Below are positions 13,894 to 58,500 of a stretch of 64,000 nucleotides of DNA, piece by piece. The notes below the pieces were generated by a model, which was not told the DNA's origin, did not search any database, and saw only the letters and a list, made by a program, of their open reading frames with translations. The stretch spans positions 434,001-498,000 of the forward strand of contig NZ_BMPG01000001.1 in NCBI RefSeq assembly GCF_014647475.1. The letters run 5' to 3'. Positions within the stretch are counted from its first letter, which is position 1, and each line of letters opens with the position of its first letter. This DNA comes from Halocalculus aciditolerans (GTDB taxonomy: Archaea; Halobacteriota; Halobacteria; Halobacteriales; Halobacteriaceae). The position numbers were made by a program, and so were the translations under genes.

Positions 13894-15848
13894 CCGACCG
13901 ACGCGCGCTCGAACGCGACGCCTACGAGGACGAACCGACGGACACGACGCTCTACGGCCTCCTCGCGAACGCCGCCGACGAGTTCCCCGACCGGCCCGCC
14001 GCCGGCATCAAGGGCGGCGTCTACGACCGCTCGCTCGACCCGCTCCCCGGCCCGGCTGACGGCGAGTACGCCGACTTCTCCTATCGCGAGTTCCACGGCG
14101 TCGTCCGCCGGCTCGCCGCCGGCTTCCGCGACCTCGGCGTCCGCCCCGGCGACCGCGTCGCCGTCTTCGCGCACACCCGCGTCGAGTGGGCGCTCTGTGA
14201 CTTCGCGCTCCTCGCCGCCGGCGCGACCGTCGTCACCATCTACCCCTCCTCCTCGACGAAACAGGTCGCTCACCTCCTCTCGGACAGCGGCGCGACCGTC
14301 GCCGTCGCCGAGAACGACGCGCTCGCGGACCGCGTCGCCGACACCGACTTCGACGGGACGACCGTGACGATGGACGCCCGCCCCGCGCCCGAGCGCGACG
14401 CGGCGGACGCGGAGACCGACCCGACGGACACAGAGACCGACCCGACCGCGCCGACACCGGCGTCGGGCGTGCGGACGCTCGGCGACGTCTACGACCGCGG
14501 CGAGCGCGACCCCGACCTCCCCGGCGTCAACCCCCGCAGCGTCGCCACCATCATCTACACCTCCGGGACGACCGGCCGGCCGAAGGGCGTCGAACTCACC
14601 CACCGGAACATCGTCGCGAACGTCGCGCAGTGCCGCGCGCGGTTCGCCGCGAGCGACGAGGGCGGCGTCGACGAAACCTCGGTGCAGCTCTCCTTCCTCC
14701 CGCTCAGCCACGTCTTCGAGCGCACCGCCGGCCACTTCCTCATGTTCGCCTCCGGCGCGCACGTCTGCTACGCGGAGTCCGCGGACACCCTCCGCGAGGA
14801 CTTCGGCCTCGTGAACCCGACGACGGTGACGAGCGTCCCGCGCGTCTACGAGAAACTCTACGACACCGCCCGCAAGCAAGCCACCGACTCCGACGTCCGC
14901 CAGCGCATCTTCGACTGGGCCGTCGACGTCGCCCGCGCCTACTTCTACGCCGACGCGCCCGGCCTCGCCCTCCGCGCGAAACACGCCGTCGCCGACCGCC
15001 TCGTCTACGCGAAAATCCGCGACGCCATCGGCGGGAACCTCGAGTTCGCCATCTCCGGCGGCGGCAGCCTCGACCCCGACCTCGCCGCGCTCTACCACGG
15101 CATGGGCGTCTCCATCCTCGAAGGATACGGCCTCACCGAGACCAGCCCCGTCCTCGCCGTGAACCCCATCGACGACCCCCAGGTCGGCACCGTCGGCCCC
15201 GCCGTCGTCGACACCGAACTGAAAGTCGACCCCGCCGCCGCCACCGAAGAACAACGCGTCGACGCCGACGGCGAGGCCGGCGAACTCCTCGCCCGCGGCC
15301 CCCAGGTCTTCGCCGGCTACCGCGGCCTCCCCGAGGAGACCGAACTCGCCTTTACCAGCGAGGGCTTCTTCCGCACCGGCGACGTCGTCGACATCCACCC
15401 CGACGGCTACGTCGAGTTCCTCGAACGCGCCAAACAACTCCTCAAACTCTCCACCGGCAAGATGGTGCCCCCCGGCCCCATCGAGGACGCCTTCTCCACG
15501 AGCAACCTCGTCGAACAAGCCCTCGTCATCGGCGACGGCCACAAGTTCGTCGCCGCGCTCCTCGTCCCCAGCTACGACGGCCTCCAGCGCCGCGCCGACC
15601 GCGAAGGCGTCGACCTCCCCGAAGCCCCCGCCGACGTCTGCCGCGACGACACCGTCCGCGCGTGGATCGCCGACGACGTCGACACCGTCAACGAGGACTT
15701 CGAGCGGTTCGAACGCATCAAGAAATTCACCCTCGTCCCCGAGGAGTTCACCGAAGCGAACGGCCTCCTCACCCCCACCATGAAGAAGAAACGCCGCGAG
15801 ATACTCGCCAAATACGGCGACGAAATCGACGCGATATACGACGCGTAA
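13890..15848 (+). CDS. long-chain acyl-CoA synthetase (AMP-forming)
   Basis: The 652-residue enzyme of the ANL family activates fatty acids to acyl-CoA through an acyl-adenylate. The P-loop IIYTSGTTGRPKGVELTHRN lies near 221-240; the adenine motif is YGLTETSP (about 413); the hinge motif is GYVEFLERAKQLLKLSTGK with catalytic Lys near 530. KGGVYDRSLDPLPGP at 35-50 and an acidic insert near 160-195 are unusual. It overlaps the upstream MBL gene by 4 nt. Confidence 0.9.
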   Translation: MTDRRALERDAYEDEPTDTTLYGLLANAADEFPDRPAAGIKGGVYDRSLDPLPGPADGEYADFSYREFHGVVRRLAAGFRDLGVRPGDRVAVFAHTRVEWALCDFALLAAGATVVTIYPSSSTKQVAHLLSDSGATVAVAENDALADRVADTDFDGTTVTMDARPAPERDAADAETDPTDTETDPTAPTPASGVRTLGDVYDRGERDPDLPGVNPRSVATIIYTSGTTGRPKGVELTHRNIVANVAQCRARFAASDEGGVDETSVQLSFLPLSHVFERTAGHFLMFASGAHVCYAESADTLREDFGLVNPTTVTSVPRVYEKLYDTARKQATDSDVRQRIFDWAVDVARAYFYADAPGLALRAKHAVADRLVYAKIRDAIGGNLEFAISGGGSLDPDLAALYHGMGVSILEGYGLTETSPVLAVNPIDDPQVGTVGPAVVDTELKVDPAAATEEQRVDADGEAGELLARGPQVFAGYRGLPEETELAFTSEGFFRTGDVVDIHPDGYVEFLERAKQLLKLSTGKMVPPGPIEDAFSTSNLVEQALVIGDGHKFVAALLVPSYDGLQRRADREGVDLPEAPADVCRDDTVRAWIADDVDTVNEDFERFERIKKFTLVPEEFTEANGLLTPTMKKKRREILAKYGDEIDAIYDA

Positions 15849-15950: not shown

Positions 15951-17804
15951 GTGTCGGGCTCAGAACTCATCCCGTTGGTGGCGACGATCGTCGGCTTGGG
16001 CGTCGTCGCCCAGGTGCTCGCGGATAAGTACCGCGTGCCGAGCGTGCTCTTTCTCCTGCTCGCCGGGATTCTCGCCGGGCCCGAAGTCGCTGGGCTCGTG
16101 GACCCCGAGGCGTTCGGGAACGCGCTCTCGGCCATCGTCGGCCTGTCGGTCGCGATTATCGTCTTCGAGGGCGCGTTCCACCTGAAGCTCTCGAAGCTCC
16201 GACAGTCGCCACAGGAGACGCTGCGGCTCGTGACTGTCGGCGCGGTGCTCTCGCTCGTCGCGACCGCCGCCGTCGTCCACGTGCTCCTCGGCGCGCCGCT
16301 CGACCTCTCCTTCCTCATCGGCGCGCTCCTCGTCGCCACCGGACCGACGGTCATCACGCCGATTCTCGAAGTCGTTCCCGTGCGCGACCGCGTGAGCGCC
16401 GCGCTCGAAACGGAAGGCGTCGTGAACGACGTGACGGCCGCGATTCTCGCCGTCATCGCGTTCGAGGTCGTCCACGGCGGGTCGACGTCGATTCGCGGCG
16501 TCATCATCGAGTTCTCGACGCGCCTCGGCGTCGGCATCGCGGTCGGCCTCGTCCTCGCCGGCGTCGTCTGGTACGTCCTCAACCACATCGACCTCTCGGC
16601 GGGAGGCGCGCCGCAGAACGCCCGGATGATCGTTCTCGCCAGCGCGCTCGTCGCGTACGGCGCGGCCGACTGGATGCTCTCCGAAGCCGGCATCGCCGCC
16701 GTCGCGACCGCCGGCATCGTCCTCGGGAACGCCAACCTCCCCTACGAGGAGGACATCGAGTCGTTCAAGGGCGACATCACGCTCATCGTCCTCTCCTTCG
16801 TCTTCGTCACGCTCGCCGCGCTCCTCTCCATCGACGACCTGCTGCGACTCGGCATCGCCGGCCTCCTCATCGCCGTCCTCGTCGCCGTCGTCATCCGCCC
16901 CATCGTCGTCTACCTCTCCACCACCGGGAACCGCTTCACCTTCTCGGAGCGCGCGTTCATGAGCGCGGTCGCCCCCCGCGGCATCATTCCGGCGTCCGTC
17001 GCGACGCTCTTCGCCGTCCAGCTCCAGTCCAGCCAGCCGGCAGCAGCGAACACTCTCGTCGGCGTGGTCTTCCTCGTCATCGTCTTCACCGTCGTCTTAG
17101 AGGGTGGGCCCGCCAGACAGATTGCGGAATTCCTCGACGTCATACCAATGCGTGTCATCATCATCGGCGGCGGCACCGTCGGTCGCGAGCTCGCAGAGCG
17201 CCTCGAAGACCGCGGTGAGAACGTCGTCATCATCGAACGGGAGAAGAGCATGGTCGAAGTAGCGCGGAACGAGGGCTTCACCGTCCACGAAGGCGACGGG
17301 ACAGATACCGAGGTCCTCCGGTCGGCGGGCGCGGAGAACGCGAAGATCATGGTCGCCGCGACGGGCGACGACGACGCGAACCTCCTCGTCAGCCAGCTCG
17401 CCGACACCAAATTCGACGTGGAGACCATCATCGCGCGGGCGAACAACCCCGACAACGTCGCCGCGTTCGAAGACCTCGGCGTCCGCACCGTCTCCTCCGC
17501 GATGGCGACCGCGTGGGGCATCGACAACCTCATCGAGCGCCCCGCGCTCGCCACGTGGATGACGGAGCTCGGCCGCTCCGGCGACGTCCAGGAGATCGCC
17601 ATCACGAACGACGACGTCGTCGGCCTCACCGTCGCCGACCTCGACGAGCGCCTCCCCGGCGGCGTCATCGTCGCCCTCGTCGGCCGCGGCGGCGAGACGA
17701 ACGTCCCCGACCCCGAGTTCACCCTCCAGAAGGACGACCACCTCACCCTGCTCGGCCGCCGCGACGCCGTCCACGAAGCCCTCGAGATGTGCCGCGGCGA
17801 CTGA
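15951..17804 (+). CDS. cation/proton antiporter with C-terminal TrkA-N and TrkA-C domains
   Basis: The 617-residue protein has a CPA-type antiporter membrane domain of about 12 helices (residues 5-390) and a cytoplasmic RCK-type regulator. VATGPTVITPILEVVPVRDR and LETEGVVNDVTAAI are antiporter core motifs; ALETEGVVND holds the ion-site acid. TrkA-N starts at about 400 with VIIIGGGTVGRELAERL, a nucleotide-binding fold, and the TrkA-C ends at 617. It should exchange Na+ or K+ for H+ under nucleotide control. Confidence 0.88.
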   Translation: MSGSELIPLVATIVGLGVVAQVLADKYRVPSVLFLLLAGILAGPEVAGLVDPEAFGNALSAIVGLSVAIIVFEGAFHLKLSKLRQSPQETLRLVTVGAVLSLVATAAVVHVLLGAPLDLSFLIGALLVATGPTVITPILEVVPVRDRVSAALETEGVVNDVTAAILAVIAFEVVHGGSTSIRGVIIEFSTRLGVGIAVGLVLAGVVWYVLNHIDLSAGGAPQNARMIVLASALVAYGAADWMLSEAGIAAVATAGIVLGNANLPYEEDIESFKGDITLIVLSFVFVTLAALLSIDDLLRLGIAGLLIAVLVAVVIRPIVVYLSTTGNRFTFSERAFMSAVAPRGIIPASVATLFAVQLQSSQPAAANTLVGVVFLVIVFTVVLEGGPARQIAEFLDVIPMRVIIIGGGTVGRELAERLEDRGENVVIIEREKSMVEVARNEGFTVHEGDGTDTEVLRSAGAENAKIMVAATGDDDANLLVSQLADTKFDVETIIARANNPDNVAAFEDLGVRTVSSAMATAWGIDNLIERPALATWMTELGRSGDVQEIAITNDDVVGLTVADLDERLPGGVIVALVGRGGETNVPDPEFTLQKDDHLTLLGRRDAVHEALEMCRGD

Positions 17805-18022: not shown

Positions 18023-18174
18023 TACGCGTTCTCGAACGTGATGGCCGCGCCCTGCCGGCGAGGACTCTTTGTCTCGGTCGCCGACGCGGTGCGTCGGCTC
18101 CCTCGCAAAATCTCCACCAAAAACTGAGAGTGGAAGCGTCTACGCGTTCTCGAACGTGATGGCCGCGCCCTGCC
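18023..18174. repeat. 34-bp direct repeat of the thiolase 3' end
   Basis: The stretch 18141-18174, the last codons and stop of the thiolase gene, is repeated exactly at 18023-18056, including an in-frame stop. The 84 bp between them are unrelated and contain no gene. Beside it, gcgcgcttcgcgcgc (18001-18015) is a perfect palindrome-like hairpin. The intergenic region 17805-18139 otherwise shows nothing. Confidence 0.85.
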
Positions 18175-19282
18175 CGAAGCCGACGCAGAGTGTCGCGAGG
18201 CCCTTGTCGACGTCGCGCTTCTGCATCTCGTGGATGAGCGTGACGGGGAGGCGCGCGCCGGACGCGCCGAGCGGGTGGCCGATGGAGATTGCGCCGCCGT
18301 TGACGTTGTACTGGTCGTCCGGAATGCCGAGTTCGCGCTGCGCGTAGAGCGTCTGGGAGGCGAACGCCTCGTTCAGCTCGACGAGGTCGAACTCCTCGAT
18401 GTCTTCGCCCGTGCGTTCGAGGAGGCCTTTCGTCGCGGGGACCGGGCCGATACCCATGACGGTCGGGTCGACGCCCGCGACGTTGTTGTCGCCGATGTAT
18501 GCGAGCTTCTCTAGGTCGTTCTCGTCGGCGAACGCCTCGCTCGTGATGAGGAGGCAGGACGCGCCGTCCGAGATCTGACTGGAGTTCCCGGCCGTCACGT
18601 CGCCGTCGCTCTTGAACGCCGGCGGGAGGCTCTGGAGCGTCTCGAAGTCCGTGCTCCGGCGGATGCCCTCGTCTTCCTCGACGACCCCGTCGTCTGTTTC
18701 GATGGGGAGGATTTCGTCGTCGAAGCGCCCGGAGTCCGTGGCTTCGGCGGCGCGTTCGTGGCTCCGCACGGCGTAGCGGTCCATCTCCTCTCGACTGACG
18801 TCGTACTCCTCGGCGACCTTCTCAGCGGTCATCCCCATGGAGAGTTCGGGGACGTTGTAGAGGTCCGAGAGCCCCGGGTGGACGGACTCGTAGCCGCCCT
18901 CCATCGGTACCCGGGACATGTTCTCGACGCCGCCGGCGACGATGACGTCGCGCTGGCCGGCGTGGATGGCGTCGCTCGCCGAAATCACGGCCTGCATCGA
19001 GGACGCACACCACCGGTTGATGGTGGTCGCGGGGACGCTCTCGCCGAGGTCGGAGAGGAGCGCGATGATGCGCGCCAGGTTGTTGTCCTGCTCGCCGCGC
19101 TGCTGCGCGCAGCCCCACATCAGGTCGTCGACGTCCTCGCTCCCGAGACCGGTCTCGTCGAGGACGTGGTTGATGAGGGGGACGGAGAGGTCTTCGGAGC
19201 GCGTGTCGGCGAAGACGCCGCCGCCCTTGCCTTGCGGTGTTCGAACGGCTCGGACGACGACGGGCGTGGTGTCGCTACCCAT
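18140..19282 (-). CDS. thiolase (acetyl-CoA C-acyltransferase)
   Basis: The 380-residue thiolase condenses or cleaves acyl-CoA with CoA. The nucleophile Cys lies in INRWCASSMQAV (about 83-94), the catalytic His in ISIGHPLGASGARL, and the C-terminal Cys in LATLCVGFGQGAA. Start MGSD (ATG 19282) sits 26 nt from a TATA element, and the longer frame upstream is not conserved. Direction (degradation or acetoacetyl-CoA supply) cannot be decided. Confidence 0.92.
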   Translation of the reverse strand: MGSDTTPVVVRAVRTPQGKGGGVFADTRSEDLSVPLINHVLDETGLGSEDVDDLMWGCAQQRGEQDNNLARIIALLSDLGESVPATTINRWCASSMQAVISASDAIHAGQRDVIVAGGVENMSRVPMEGGYESVHPGLSDLYNVPELSMGMTAEKVAEEYDVSREEMDRYAVRSHERAAEATDSGRFDDEILPIETDDGVVEEDEGIRRSTDFETLQSLPPAFKSDGDVTAGNSSQISDGASCLLITSEAFADENDLEKLAYIGDNNVAGVDPTVMGIGPVPATKGLLERTGEDIEEFDLVELNEAFASQTLYAQRELGIPDDQYNVNGGAISIGHPLGASGARLPVTLIHEMQKRDVDKGLATLCVGFGQGAAITFENA

Positions 19283-19307
19283 ACCACTCTCTCTGACCTC
19301 CCGCACC

Positions 19308-26061: not shown

Positions 26062-26275
26062 GCATTCGCGACCCGAGTGGCTCGATAGAGCCTCAACGAA
26101 GGTATGTCGGGCGTTCGCGGGCCGAGCGGCTCGTCAGAGCCCGGAAGGCCCGCGATTCACTCGCCGCATAGCGGCGAGGCCCCGAACCCCACCGTAGGTG
26201 GGGTGACGGGGCTTTTGGTCGAGCTTTTACAGCGCGCGGCCGGAGGCCGCGCCCAGTAAAAGGTCGAAGCGAAGG
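26062..26275 (+). ncRNA. structured intergenic element A (candidate RNA)
   Basis: Element A contains the first-module hairpin: outer stem CGCGGGCC (26116-26123)/GGCCCGCG (26147-26154), internal loops GAGC and CGGAA, inner stem GGCTC/GAGCC. A degenerate half copy lies at 26075-26092. Then come ATTCAC, a hairpin (26160-26178), a longer GC hairpin, CTTTTGGTC and a terminal hairpin CTTTTAC (26224-26230)/GTAAAAG (26256-26262). The same order occurs at 29.5 and 58.3 kb. Whether it is transcribed is unknown. Confidence 0.5.
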
Positions 26276-26317: not shown

Positions 26318-27559
26318 ATGGCAGGAAATCATCGACAACCGGAGGTGAACATCGGGCTGGTCGGTCACGTTGACCACGGGAAGACGACGCTCGTGCGTGC
26401 GCTGTCGGGCGAGTGGACGGACCAGCACTCCGAGGAGATGAAGCGCGGCATCTCCATCCGTCTCGGGTACGCGGACGCGACGCTCCGGAAGTGCCCGGAG
26501 TGCGAGGAGCCGGAGGCGTTCACGGTCGAGGAGCGGTGTCCGGAGCACGACGTCGAGACGGAGGTGCTTCGCACGGTCTCGTTCGTGGACGCGCCGGGTC
26601 ACGAGACGCTGATGGCGACGATGCTCGCCGGGGCGTCCCTGATGGACGGCGCGGTGCTCGTCATCGGGGCGAACGAGCCGGTGCCGCAGCCACAGACAGA
26701 GGAGCACCTGATGGCGCTCGACATCATCGGCATCGAGAACATCGTCATCGCGCAGAACAAGGTCGACCTCGTCGACGCCGAGGAGGCGCAGCGGAACTAC
26801 GAGGAGATCCAGGAGTTCGTCGAGGGCACTGTCGCCGAGGACGCGCCGGTCGTCCCGGTGAGCGCGGAGCAGGAGATCAACCTCGACCTCGTCATCGACG
26901 CGCTGCAGCGGGAGATTCCGACGCCGGAGCGCGACCCCGACGTCGACCCGCGGATGTACGTCGCGCGCTCGTTCGACATCAACCGCCCGGGGACGACCTG
27001 GGAGGACCTCAACGGCGGCGTCGTCGGCGGGAGTCTCGTGCAGGGCGAACTCTCCGTGGACGACGACCTCGAAATCCGCCCGGGCCGCGAGGTCGACGAG
27101 GAGGGGCAGACGGAGTGGCGGTCGGTCGAGACGAACGTGCGCTCCATCCAGGCGGGCGGCGAGATGGTGGAGGACGCGAGCCCCGGCGGGCTCCTCGGCG
27201 TCGGCACGGGGCTCGACCCGTCGCTGACGAAGGGCGACGCGCTCGCCGGCCAGGTCGCCGGCCACCCGGACGCCCTCCCCCCGGTCTGGAACGACTTCAC
27301 GATGCAGGTCGACCTCTTAGAGCGCCTCGTCGGCGCGGAAGAGGGCGAGCAGGTGGAGGACATCTCGACCGGCGAACCCCTCATGCTCACGGTCGGGACG
27401 GCGACGACCGTCGGCGCGGTCACGTCCGCGCGCTCCGGCGAGTGTGAAGTCCAACTGAAACGCCCGGTCTGCGCGCCCGAGGGCGCGAAGATCGCGATCA
27501 ACCGCCGCGTCGGCGCGCGCTGGCGGCTCATCGGCGTCGGCACGCTCGGCGCGGAATAG
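26318..27559 (+). CDS. eif2g: translation initiation factor aIF2 subunit gamma
   Basis: The 413-residue GTPase carries initiator tRNA to the ribosome as part of aIF2. G1 is [17 protein letters not shown] (about 12-28), the zinc knuckle C-x2-C plus C-P-E-H lies at about 60-78, G3 is DAPGHE and G4 is AQNKVDLV. It heads the conserved archaeal information-processing cluster. The ATG follows a T/A-rich stretch (gggttaact) that may be its promoter. Confidence 0.97.
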
Positions 27560-29256: not shown

Positions 29257-29460
29257 CTACTCGCTCTCGAGGTTCGAGCGTCGCCGCTCTTGGACTCTCG
29301 CCGCGCGCGACGCGAACCACGCCAGCACGACGATTGTGAGTCCAACGACGGCGACCGCCCACGCCGTGAACGACCCGTCTGCCGACCCGCTGCGGAGGAA
29401 TATCGCGAACAGAAGCAGCGCGAGACCGATTCGCTGTATCGTCGCCGCCTTCGGGGACAT
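29257..29460 (-). CDS. small two-span membrane protein
   Basis: The 67-residue protein has two helices (about 9-24 LALLLFAIFLRSG and 30-50 VAVVGLTIVVLAWFAS), and a basic-acidic tail RRRSNLESE. It interrupts the conserved cluster on the opposite strand. No family is recognised; ORF quality (hydrophobic helices, ATG start) supports a real gene. Confidence 0.55.
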   Translation of the reverse strand: MSPKAATIQRIGLALLLFAIFLRSGSADGSFTAWAVAVVGLTIVVLAWFASRAARVQERRRSNLESE

Positions 29461-29537: not shown

Positions 29538-29795
29538 CTCTCGCGAGCACTCGGCGACCGAGTGGTCCGTCAGGACCCGGAATCGCGCGAGAGCAAGCTC
29601 TCGCTGAGTCACACTCACTCCCTACGGGAGTTCGCGTGACGGCCGCCGGTTCGCTCGCCGCGGAGTCCGCGTGAGTGAAGCGAACGCGGGCAAGTCGGAG
29701 TGGGCTCCGACCGAGGTTGGGTGACGGGGCGTTTGGTCGAGCTTTTGCCGAGCGGGGGCGTCCAGAGGGCACCTCCCGCAGAGTAAAAAGGTCGT
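29538..29795 (+). ncRNA. structured intergenic element B (candidate RNA, fullest copy)
   Basis: Element B has three modules. Module 1 (29554-29586): GAGT and CGGAA loops around stem GGTCC/GGACC, outer stem GCGA/TCGC. Module 2: CCGCGT (29667-29672)/ACGCGG (29684-29689), GCAAG, then TCGGAG (29695-29700)/CTCCGA (29705-29710). Module 3: TTTGGTCGAG, then CTTTT/AAAAG around a GC-rich stem (29742-29790). It fills the 29461-29842 intergenic gap and contains no ORF I trust. Confidence 0.5.
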
Positions 29796-29802
29796 TCGTA
29801 AT

Positions 29803-29810
29803 CCTTTTAC
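29803..29810 (+). promoter_or_regulatory. TATA element of rps24e
   Basis: CCTTTTAC ends 33 nt before ATG 29843 and would give a leader of about 8 nt. A second AT word, TTATATA at 29824-29830, is too close to the ATG to serve as TATA box for this start. Confidence 0.45.
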
Positions 29811-29842
29811 GCCGATGCGCGCGTTATATAGGACAACTAGCC

Positions 29843-30160
29843 ATGGAAATCGACATCATCTCGGAGGAGGACAATCCCCTCCTTCACCGGACGCAGGTCC
29901 AGTTCGAAATCACGCACGAGGAAGCGACGCCTTCCCGTCTCTCCGTCCGCGACAGCCTCGCGGCGGCGCTCGACAAGAACTCGGACGAGGTCGTCGTCCA
30001 CTCCGTCGATACGAAGTTCGGGATGCGGAAGTCCGTCGGGTACGCGAAAGTCTACGAGTCCGCCGCCGTCGCCACCGACGTCGAGCAGGACTACATGCTG
30101 GAGCGGAACAAGATCGAAGCCGAGGCCGGCGAGGCCGCGGAAGCGGAGGGCGAGGAGTAA
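29843..30160 (+). CDS. rps24e: ribosomal protein eS24
   Basis: The 105-residue small-subunit protein begins [20 protein letters not shown], with the eS24 core [16 protein letters not shown] and [20 protein letters not shown]. Typical acidic Glu/Ala-rich tail. Its TAA overlaps the ATG of rps27ae by one base. The pairing with eS31-like S27ae and Kae1 is conserved in archaea. Confidence 0.97.
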
Positions 30161-32849: not shown

Positions 32850-33107
32850 GGTTCGCGAGAGGTCGCAGGCTCGTTTTCGACGGCTCCGAAAGCTCGATCC
32901 GCTCCCCGACGCGCCGTCTGCGCGGCACATCCGCTCGCTCGTTCCTTCCTCACGGATAGTGGCCGGCAGGCCGACGCCTCAGGTCGCCATGGCGGGACGT
33001 ACGTCGTCCCGCTCGCTCTCACTCGCCCTCAGTCGGAGGCAAGCTCCTCCTTGCCCACACTCGCTTTGCTCGCGTGGACTCCGGCCCTCGCGAGAACCCC
33101 TTTCGAT
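32850..33107 (-). ncRNA. structured intergenic element E (candidate RNA, partial)
   Basis: On the minus strand 33107-33030 has module 2: GGAGTCC, stem CCACGC (33077-33072)/GTGTGG (33060-33055; one G-U pair), GGGCAAG, then GGAGG/CCTCC around AGCTTG. Modules 1 and 3 are not clear. Downstream on the same strand, GATCGAGCTTTC may be a degraded terminal hairpin. The rest of 32846-33195 holds no gene; GGGGTGAC (33143-33150)/GTCACCCC (33165-33172) is a separate hairpin. Confidence 0.35.
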
Positions 33108-37921: not shown

Positions 37922-39198
37922 ACTACAACTACAGGTATCGACTCCGACCGTCCGACGCTCTCGCAGAACAGTTAGCGTGGACTGTCGATACCTGTAGGCA
38001 GGTCTACAACCACTTCCTTCACCGGCTCAACCGTACCGACGATACTTCGGCATACAGTGAACAGAAGCTTCTGCCGAGTCTCAAAAAGTGGTGGAACGAC
38101 CTGCAAAGCGTTCACTCGAAAGTCCTTCAGAAAGTCGTACAACGCCTGTACGACAACCTCTCGACGCTTCGTGGTCGTAAAGAGAACGGCTACCGCGTCG
38201 GCCAACTCAAGTGGAAGGCACCGGGCGAGTACCGTAGTTTCACCTACAGTCAATCCGGCTTCAAGCTCAAGAACACGACCGGTCGGACGCGACTGTGGCT
38301 CTCGAAACTCGGAGAAATCCCGCTCACCTTCCACCGCGACCTCCCTGACGACGCCGAAATCAAGACTGTCACCGTCAAGCAGGAACTGACCGGCAAATGG
38401 TACGCTATCCTCGGTGTCGAAACCCCCGACGACCCGCCGGAGAAACCGGAGAATCCCGAGAAGTGCGTCGGTATCGACGTAGGTATCTTGAAGTACGCCC
38501 ACGACACAGACGGCACGGCAGTCGAATCCCTCGACCTCTCTGACGAGCGCGAGCAGTTGGAACGCGCACAGCGCGACCTCTCGCGGAAGGAACACGGTTC
38601 CGCGAATTGGGAGAAACAGCGCCGCGTCGTGGCCGAACGCCACGCTGAGTTGAAGAACAAGCGGCGTGACTTCCTCCACAAGCTCTCGAACTACTACGCA
38701 CGGGAGTACGACCTCGTGGCCGTGGAGGATTTGGACGCGAAGGGTTTGGTCGAACTGCCGGGCAACTCGCGGAATCGAGCGGGTGCGGCGTGGGGGACGT
38801 TCCTGCGGATGGTCGAATACAAGTGCGAACGCGAAGGAACGTATTTCGTCGCCGTGAATCCGCGTGGAACAACAAAAGAGTGTGCGGCCTGCGGTGTTTC
38901 GACGGAGAAGCCGCTGTGGGTCCGTGAACACTCCTGTCCTGCCTGCGGGTTTGAGGCGGATAGAGACGCGAACGCGGCGTGGAACATCCTTTCTCGCGGT
39001 ATCAAGAAGCGGTTAGGAGCGGGACGCTCCGAATCAACGTCCCCAGAAATCGAAGATTTCTGGTGTGCGAACGAATCGCAGAGCGATTCGTTAACGCCTG
39101 TGGAGACTGCGCTCCCTGTGTCCTCCGTGGTGGATGCAAAGCGCGTCGTGGAAACAGGAAGCCCCACCCTCAAGCGCGAGCCGTCAGGCGAGCGGTAG
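37918..39198 (+). CDS. tnpB: TnpB RNA-guided endonuclease, apparently intact
   Basis: The 426-residue protein has the RuvC-like residues Asp187 (GIDVGILKYA), Glu270 (VAVEDLD) and Asp350 (DRDANAAWN), and the zinc ribbon Cys322, Cys325, Cys340, Cys343. TnpB uses a right-end RNA to cut DNA next to a short element-adjacent motif. The C-terminal tail (about 360-426) is typical of haloarchaeal members. GTG 37918 is the start. Its guide RNA would cover the end of the gene and the right-end hairpin. Confidence 0.92.
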   Translation: MNYNYRYRLRPSDALAEQLAWTVDTCRQVYNHFLHRLNRTDDTSAYSEQKLLPSLKKWWNDLQSVHSKVLQKVVQRLYDNLSTLRGRKENGYRVGQLKWKAPGEYRSFTYSQSGFKLKNTTGRTRLWLSKLGEIPLTFHRDLPDDAEIKTVTVKQELTGKWYAILGVETPDDPPEKPENPEKCVGIDVGILKYAHDTDGTAVESLDLSDEREQLERAQRDLSRKEHGSANWEKQRRVVAERHAELKNKRRDFLHKLSNYYAREYDLVAVEDLDAKGLVELPGNSRNRAGAAWGTFLRMVEYKCEREGTYFVAVNPRGTTKECAACGVSTEKPLWVREHSCPACGFEADRDANAAWNILSRGIKKRLGAGRSESTSPEIEDFWCANESQSDSLTPVETALPVSSVVDAKRVVETGSPTLKREPSGER

Positions 39199-57525: not shown

Positions 57526-57951
57526 ATGGCAGGAGTACTCGTTCCCATCGACAGCAGCGAACAGTCGACCGACGCGCTCGAATACGCTCTCGAAGAGCTC
57601 CAGAGCGACGACATCACCCTCATCCACATCATCGACCCCATCGAAGCCGGCTACACCGCGCAGGCCACCGTCCCCGGCTACTCCGAAGAGTGGTACGAGC
57701 AGGCCCAGGCAGAGGCCGAAACCCTCTTCGACTCCGCGCAGGAGCTCGCCGACGACTACGACGTCGACCTCAAGACCGCCACCGAAGTCGGCCGACCGTC
57801 TCGAACCATCGTCGACTACGCCGAGGAGAACGACTTCGACCACATCGTCATGGGCAGCCACGGCCGCAGCGGCGTCTCCCGTATCCTCCTCGGCAGCGTC
57901 GCCGAAGCCGTCGTCCGCCGCTCCCCCGTCCCCGTCACCATCGTTCGATAG
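57526..57951 (+). CDS. universal stress protein (UspA family)
   Basis: The 141-residue protein starts GVLVPIDSSEQSTDALEYAL, has an acidic middle helix and ends with the ATP-binding signature GSHGRSGVSRILLGSVAEAV (G-x2-G-x9-G-S) and VTIVR. Binds ATP in this class. A stress-linked, not further defined role. Confidence 0.92.
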   Translation: MAGVLVPIDSSEQSTDALEYALEELQSDDITLIHIIDPIEAGYTAQATVPGYSEEWYEQAQAEAETLFDSAQELADDYDVDLKTATEVGRPSRTIVDYAEENDFDHIVMGSHGRSGVSRILLGSVAEAVVRRSPVPVTIVR

Positions 57952-58300
57952 GACCTTTTACGCTGCGGCGCGCTTCGCGCGCCTCGGTAAAAGCTCCACC
58001 ATTACCGGAACGCAAAGCGTTCCGGTTAGCAGTCGGATTCCGTCGGAATCCGACGACACTGCGGGAAATCTTTGATTTCCCGCCGTTCAGCCAGAAACCG
58101 GAGGTTTCTGGCGACAAAAGCACTCCTCCTTCACTTCGTGCCTGACGGCACTCCGTTCAGTCGTCGGCCCGCGCTCACATTCGTTCGCGCGGTGAACCGC
58201 TTCGCTCGGGCTCTGGGCGGGATCTCCGGTCCCGCTTGCCCGCACTCGCCTGCGGCTCGCGCGGACTCCGAGCCACTCGGGTCGCGAACGCTACTCGGAC
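57951..58300 (-). ncRNA. structured intergenic element D (candidate RNA, minus strand)
   Basis: On the minus strand element D has GTTCGCGACCCGAGTGGCTC, module 2 (CCGCGC/GTGCGG with a G-U pair at 58264-58240; GCAAG; GCGGGA/TCCCGC), GGTTCAC, further hairpins (58.02-58.17 kb), and a terminal hairpin (CTTTTAC/GTAAAAG at 57993-57955). It is back to back with element C. It extends to the base after the usp stop codon, so it may also end usp transcripts. Confidence 0.45.
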
Positions 58301-58320
58301 TCTACTGTAACCACGATTAG

Positions 58321-58498
58321 CGTCCGGCGACCGAGCGGGTCGAAGACCCCGGAAGGTCGCCGGTTCACAGTGCGCTTTGCGCGCTGGCCAACGAGTGACT
58401 AACGCGGCGCGAAGCGCCGCGGCTGGAACGAGGAGGCTTTTGGTCCAGATTTTTATCGAGCGGGGCGCGTCGCGCCCCGCTCGCAATAAAAAGGTGGG
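58321..58498 (+). ncRNA. structured intergenic element C (candidate RNA)
   Basis: Module 1: outer stem CCGGCGACC (58324-58332)/GGTCGCCGG (58355-58363), loops GAGC and CGGAA, inner stem GGGTC/GACCC. Then GGTTCAC, a hairpin (58369-58385), GCGGCGC/GCGCCGC (58404-58420), GGCTTTTGGTCC, and a terminal 13-bp palindrome CGAGCGGGGCGCG/CGCGCCCCGCTCG (58457-58483) flanked by TTTTTAT and ATAAAAA. It abuts the 3' end of the RAM gene. Confidence 0.5.
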
Positions 58499-58500
58499 TT

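Follow-up and report, generated by a model that had tools for sequence, protein, structure and literature searches.

What is the hairpin-rich segment that lies between the genes for dephospho-CoA kinase and rps24e, and why does it recur? The segment is part of the window, the whole stretch of 64,000 nucleotides that was analysed (G000:C1:434001-498000 of a 3.38 Mb genome, here called the own genome). The original prediction had described three structured modules in a fixed order and had taken them for a structured RNA or a palindromic mobile element, not for random GC hairpins. We identify the segment as one copy of a cassette of the Halobacteriales that is dispersed, non-coding and oriented and consists of two palindromes, here called A and T.

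The cassette upstream of rps24e

The copy upstream of rps24e spans 29545-29796 with all parts on the plus strand, and is one member of a dispersed cassette family with fixed module order. Its A hairpin starts with the 5' arm and core (GAGCACTCGGCGACC-GAGTGG-TCCGTCAGGA-CCCGGAA, 29545-29582; cmsearch with covariance model R1 found the core at 29560-29582) and ends with the 3' arm GGCCGCCGGT (29641-29650), the pairing partner of which is CGGCGACC. What had been noticed as GAGT/CGGAA loops is the internal loop of this hairpin, conserved as GAGY/CGGWA. Nested in the 3' side of A is the M unit, a double hairpin (GCGAGAGC-AA-GCTCTCGC, then GTCAC..GTGAC; 29583-29640) that splits the CGGAA and GGCCGCC halves of A. 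It is followed by the C unit, also a double hairpin (CCGCGTGAGTGAAGCGAACGCGG-GCAAG-TCGGAGTGGGCTCCGA, 29661-29711; the second module of the original prediction), by a linker hairpin of which only the right arm is left (GGTTGGGTGACGGGG, 29712-29728; the left arm was lost here, as judged from comparison with loci L008, L009 and L118) and by the T hairpin (GCGTTTGGTCGAGCTTTTGCC..GTAAAAAGGTCG, 29729-29796; 65.2 bits in cmsearch with model R2). The outer stem of this T hairpin is CGA/TCG with a G.G mismatch, equivalent to C.C on the other strand. The three predicted modules are therefore A, C and T in the predicted order, and a fourth part, the M unit, had been missed.

The T end directly adjoins a promoter-like sequence of rps24e (TCGTAATCCTTTTACG, 29796-29811(+)) that is conserved in haloarchaea as TCGAAATCCTTTTACG (upstream regions of 80 rps24e loci). 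The rps24e coding sequence (29843-30160(+); closest named matches include Halarchaeum and Halorubrum) begins with an ATG at 29843, 46 nt beyond the T end. As read from the sequence, the gap also houses a small minus-strand ORF that starts near 29460; the element is thus flanked by two divergent start codons. The position in the gap was predicted correctly; a recent splitting of the gene cluster is contradicted by a diverged copy that four Halarchaeum genomes have at the corresponding position (L038, L048, L052, L124), and a weaker T-like copy is found at this site in another family (L116). Compared with dinucleotide shuffles, the window copy folds with a z of -3.2 as RNA and -3.3 as DNA.

The modules recur in the window, as predicted. 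A second cassette at 26110-26268(+) consists of A at 26110-26163 and T at 26211-26268, its T end being 49 nt upstream of an ORF at 26318 (aIF2-gamma by sequence reading). Two convergent genes each have their own cassette, placed back to back within 57949-58499: that of a UspA-like gene (57526-57951) extends over 57949-58292(-), with T at 57949-58001(-) flush with the stop codon and A at 58189-58292(-), while that of an AsnC/Lrp-like gene extends over 58319-58499(+), with A at 58319-58371 and T at 58436-58499, again flush with the stop codon. The C unit is present again at 33032-33083 and inside the loop of the A hairpin that spans 58189-58292. At 18060-18124(-), 15 nt past the stop codon of an ORF at 18140-19306(-), there is a weak T-type hairpin with no A.

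Distribution, fixed order and covariation

In the own genome, blastn with the segment gave 49 partial matches, and the covariance models (R1 for A and R2 for T) gave 35 A and 45 T hairpins at E<=0.01, numbers far beyond chance. They make up about 40 cassettes of roughly 150-270 nt, flanked by the A and T palindromes and with no coding capacity; 40 of the 41 A hairpins are accompanied by a T, on the same strand and at a distance of 38-189 nt. On the window plus strand, the order in the own-genome copies is A hairpin, small B hairpin, linker hairpin, the conserved sequence GCTTTTRGTnnAGCTTTT and T hairpin.

The search of related genomes by covariance model, which had been proposed with the original prediction, detected A in 24 of 26 and T in all 26 genomes of the family, with all 7 genera represented. 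In an order-wide sample, A is present in 34 of 116 genomes at E<=0.001; outside the family, copies are usually few and most of the loci fetched keep the A-then-T order. Model E-values reach 1e-15, and such searches favour copies that retain the modelled pairs. Searches for the A core in viral contigs and for the cassette in phage records were negative. At gathering and permissive thresholds alike, Rfam 15 recognises only tRNAs in the window, and three cassette loci gave no match up to E=1. Searches of the open literature, which largely excludes subscription papers, returned no description of this cassette.

The consensus of A is YCGGCGACC-GAGY-GGTCC-loop-GGACC-CGGWA-GGTCGCCGR. Its stems vary (CGGCGACC/GGTCGCCG, CGCGAACC/GGTTCGCG, CGCGGCCC/GGGCCGCG and others) and the internal loop is constant. 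Among 29 seeds, 96% of the cells pair, a percentage that is biased as the seeds were chosen with a minimum of pairing; however, this choice does not explain the two-sided changes, which affect 10 of 14 pairs (73 cells). None of 500 shuffles reached this covariation, and sliding the partner by one column lowered the score from 0.479 to 0.100 or less. The T hairpin has TTTT..AAAA arms with a conserved C.C mismatch, retained in 37 of 39 alignable copies, and ends in AAAAGGTnn on the window plus strand. In these 39 copies, 113 of 117 pairs of the outer stem are formed, compared with 75.8 +/- 4.8 after swapping arms among loci (at most 94 in any of 10,000 permutations). The two observations that could have overturned the original prediction were an absence of further copies with the same module order and pairings that do not covary; the searches revealed the opposite on both counts.

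Placement at stop codons and promoters

A gene ends, or starts, at T, and the cassette, when followed in the T-to-A direction, is oriented away from it. Of the 129 T hairpins of four genomes, each from a different genus, 97 are at a gene 3' end, and 92 of these 97 are between -4 and +3 nt from the stop codon (by the model boundary). For comparison, TTTT in the first 14 nt behind the stop codon is seen for just 2 of the 55 genes of the window, and one of the two is a cassette. Most of the remaining T hairpins of the own genome have their end 36-49 nt upstream of a start codon, where they border the promoter on its upstream side; about a fifth of the own cassettes abut promoters in this way. The original prediction was right about the intergenic position and had overlooked that cassettes start at stop codons or promoter edges. 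A preference for certain stop codons as insertion target (avoidance of TGA) was considered and rejected: TGA is the stop codon in 19 of 97 cases, not significantly different from the background of 13 of 55. The tagged genes, identified from readings of their C-termini, include FtsZ, thermosome, SRP54, aIF2-beta, RadA and aCPSF1, and several are housekeeping genes.

In most own copies a T4-T6 tract follows the stop codon by a few nucleotides, and the palindrome provides each strand with T4-T6 at the boundary of the gene. Genome G007 has 40 T hairpins and only 8 A hairpins, indicating that T alone can mark gene ends. Downstream of A, in gene-sense direction, T is enriched in a step at 10-15 nt in the own copies (46% T). 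This step is just moderate and TTTT occurs within 40 nt in only 6-13% of copies; a simple terminator behind A was rejected.

The current understanding of archaeal termination in vivo centres on T tracts and aCPSF1. The cassette is probably a stop signal for the transcription machinery, and we regard a dispersing palindromic element that acts as a transcription boundary as the best reading, with a probability of roughly one half. The data show the family and its order, orientation, stop-codon placement, covariation, and conserved and variable sites; termination, mobility and retention by selection are what we infer. The family would most likely owe its spread to mobility as a small palindromic element, and its retention to sites where it is useful as a transcription boundary. 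With T4-T6 in either strand, placed precisely at the stop codon or immediately behind the promoter, the T palindrome would halt RNA polymerase that leaves the gene, that runs divergently from the promoter or that arrives by read-through from the opposite side. The A hairpin, with the T-rich stretch behind it, and the linker hairpins may serve as back-up stops. The window cassette, whose T abuts the rps24e promoter, would insulate the divergent starts of the small ORF, read as a membrane protein, and of rps24e from one another. A transcription boundary accounts for both placements, at stop codons and behind promoters.

Termination at T stretches in Haloferax, with values of 95% for T5C and, less efficiently, 59% for a hairpin (PMC7237163), agrees with this reading. 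Against it, the T4 of the cassette is shorter than the tested T5C. Also, a terminator has no obvious need for the internal mismatches that are conserved in A and T, which look more like features for recognition by a protein. The folding energies count against it too, as T is slightly more stable on the A-to-T strand and A is indifferent to strand, and neither a transposase partner nor an exact empty site was found. The conserved mismatches and the dispersal both point to a mobile origin.

Turnover between genomes and nested units

For 14 of the 29 tagged genes of the own genome, the orthologue is tagged too in one or more of three other genera; less than one gene would be expected by chance (for about 68 tagged genes and an assumed 2,500 genes per genome). 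At the stop codon of a PAC2-family gene, the cassette is present in G000, G004, G010, G023, G025, G028 and G007, degenerate in G001 and not seen in the congeners G027, G030, G032 and G033 or in the four genomes of the genus Halarchaeum; at the aCPSF1 stop codon it is present only in G000 and G021 among the family genomes read, with the gene end not resolved in a few genomes. The gene tagged here (L146; G000:C2:795279-796175) encodes the archaeal termination nuclease itself. Presence and absence vary at the same stop codons among congeners, and the flanks of the cassette align too poorly to define an empty site. The close congeners G004 and G010 differ at the PAC2 site in the inner A stem, GGTCC/GGACC in one and GGGTC/GACCC in the other, with alignable flanks: judged from these sequences, the changes are compensated in situ at one orthologous site. 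In G104, G059 and G040, which belong to other families, copies that are nearly identical and end sharply are embedded in unrelated flanks, indicating recent dispersal in these genomes. At loci L232-L234/L246 the ends are sharp, with no obvious repeat or duplication as judged from occupied sites.

M (58 nt in the window) and C (51 nt) each consist of two hairpins in a row; they are nested double-hairpin units, and the window copy is a composite. M, which sits in the apical loop of A in L006, is found in L002-L004, L006, L111 (from another genus) and L123. Elsewhere, C occupies the loop of the linker hairpin (L005, L112), a loop that is empty in the counterparts L008, L009, L117 and L118. More double-hairpin units, for example TTCACGAGACGC..GCGTCTCGTGA plus ACCAGAAATC..GATTTCTGGT, are in cassette loops or linkers of L018, L030/L161, L129, L149 and L154 and look like separate families of small nested units. 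On G000:C5, two identical 112-nt copies of A plus M (15601-15712 and 16847-16958) are 1.2 kb apart with similar outer flanks, which suggests a local duplication. A further sequence, tgtacgcccggaacactaccgggcgag...ctactagtagg...cggtgg, adjoins cassettes in several genera (L235, L248, L249, L250, L123, L129, L134), flanking them on both sides in L235, L249 and L250; it has no match in Rfam.

All this could also be explained by a PATE- or MITE-like element that has no function for its host, with the mismatched palindromes A and T as hairpins for a transposase supplied in trans and with the location at gene ends reflecting insertion preference plus selection against insertions elsewhere. We consider this possible, at a probability clearly below that of a boundary element. 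Near-terminal palindromes in fixed orientation, small units nested in palindromes as SMR-A is in PATEs (PMC3119063), near-identical dispersed copies in G104, presence or absence at stop codons, almost pure Watson-Crick pairing and an A without strand asymmetry are all consistent with it. However, the own genome has no Y1 transposase (Y1_Tnp, PF01797), and A is absent from the ends of its 8 TnpB (PF07282) loci, where the only match of the A model is weak, lies inside a coding gene and is attributed to chance; an origin from IS605 was thus negative in this genome. Sites that are orthologous between genera and changes that are compensated in situ require a reason for retention, and placement within 4 nt of any of three stop codons has no sequence-specific target. 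One of the 8 TnpB-like genes is in the window, at 38791-38988(+). The mobile half of the original prediction agrees with the species-dependent presence at stop codons, the near-identical copies in another genome and the nested units; a transposase partner and an exact empty site were not found.

A bolder version, which we hold only tentatively, is that a mobile palindromic element is delivered to, or kept at, stop codons within a few nucleotides and gives genes a ready-made bidirectional terminator, its outer stem using bases of the host's stop-codon region; haloarchaeal gene ends would then be written by a transposable cassette.

Strand test

An RNA function predicts asymmetry between the strands. 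Among the cells of the pairing test there are 1052 Watson-Crick pairs, 22 G.T and only 10 A.C; G.T is rare. The folding energies of A are equal on both strands, and T folds slightly better on the A-to-T strand, opposite to the gene-sense strand. A structured 3'-UTR RNA that protects or regulates the mRNA (by stability, release of a small RNA or a site for an RNA-binding protein) and does not end transcription would fit a cassette that begins at the stop codon and follows the direction of the gene, with conserved internal loops and several housekeeping genes among those tagged. Nevertheless, the strand data, the lack of an Rfam match and the fifth of own cassettes that are at promoters instead make it improbable, and the proposal of a structured RNA as such is not upheld. 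Since the strand test does not favour a gene-sense RNA, and given the evidence for a boundary and for a mobile origin, a boundary element of mobile origin is held most likely, ahead of a purely mobile PATE-like element and, last, of a 3'-UTR RNA. Chance GC-rich hairpins have a negligible probability: short palindromes are common in high-GC genomes and the single-sequence folding z is only about -3, but the E-values, the copies in all 7 genera, the covariation and the fixed order refute this explanation and strongly support the original prediction on this point.

If the cassette marks gene ends to the nucleotide across a haloarchaeal family, this would show that terminators can be dispersed in the form of repeats, and the orthologous sites that have or lack a cassette are a ready test set for a role as terminator. 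The family is also a clear case of small double-hairpin units nesting within palindromes, and the covariance model can be used to annotate hundreds of unannotated intergenic elements.

Relation to known elements

The closest known kinds appear to be the haloarchaeal PATE and SMR elements and, by analogy, the BIMEs. PATEs are palindrome-associated transposable elements of Haloquadratum walsbyi, related to IS605 and free of a transposase, terminal inverted repeats and target duplication, with SMR-A inserted in their palindromes (PMC3119063). Like the cassette, PATEs are short, non-coding and oriented, have palindromes near both ends and many copies, and are present or absent between relatives. 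In contrast to PATEs, the palindromes of the cassette keep internal loops and covarying stems, one end is at stop codons or promoters, genera share copies, and no IS605-type transposon with cassette ends was found in the own genome. As this transposon link was looked for and not found there, we do not claim membership in the PATEs. M and C resemble SMR-A in being small hairpin units within the palindromes of a larger element; SMR-A is about 110 bp long with prominent terminal inverted repeats (PMC3119063), whereas M and C are double hairpins of ~50-60 nt with no established terminal inverted repeats. The T-stretch and hairpin terminators of haloarchaea (PMC7237163) share the T tract after the gene and the hairpins near 3' ends, but in the cassette this tract forms part of a conserved palindrome, which itself belongs to a dispersed repeat family.

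The REP/BIME elements of enterobacteria are composite intergenic palindromes downstream of genes and can act as terminators or mRNA stabilisers. The cassette may be compared with them in being intergenic and composite and in lying downstream of genes. It differs in that the RAYT-type Y1 transposase (PF01797) is absent from the own genome, and in that it starts at the stop codon itself, with strictly fixed order and orientation.
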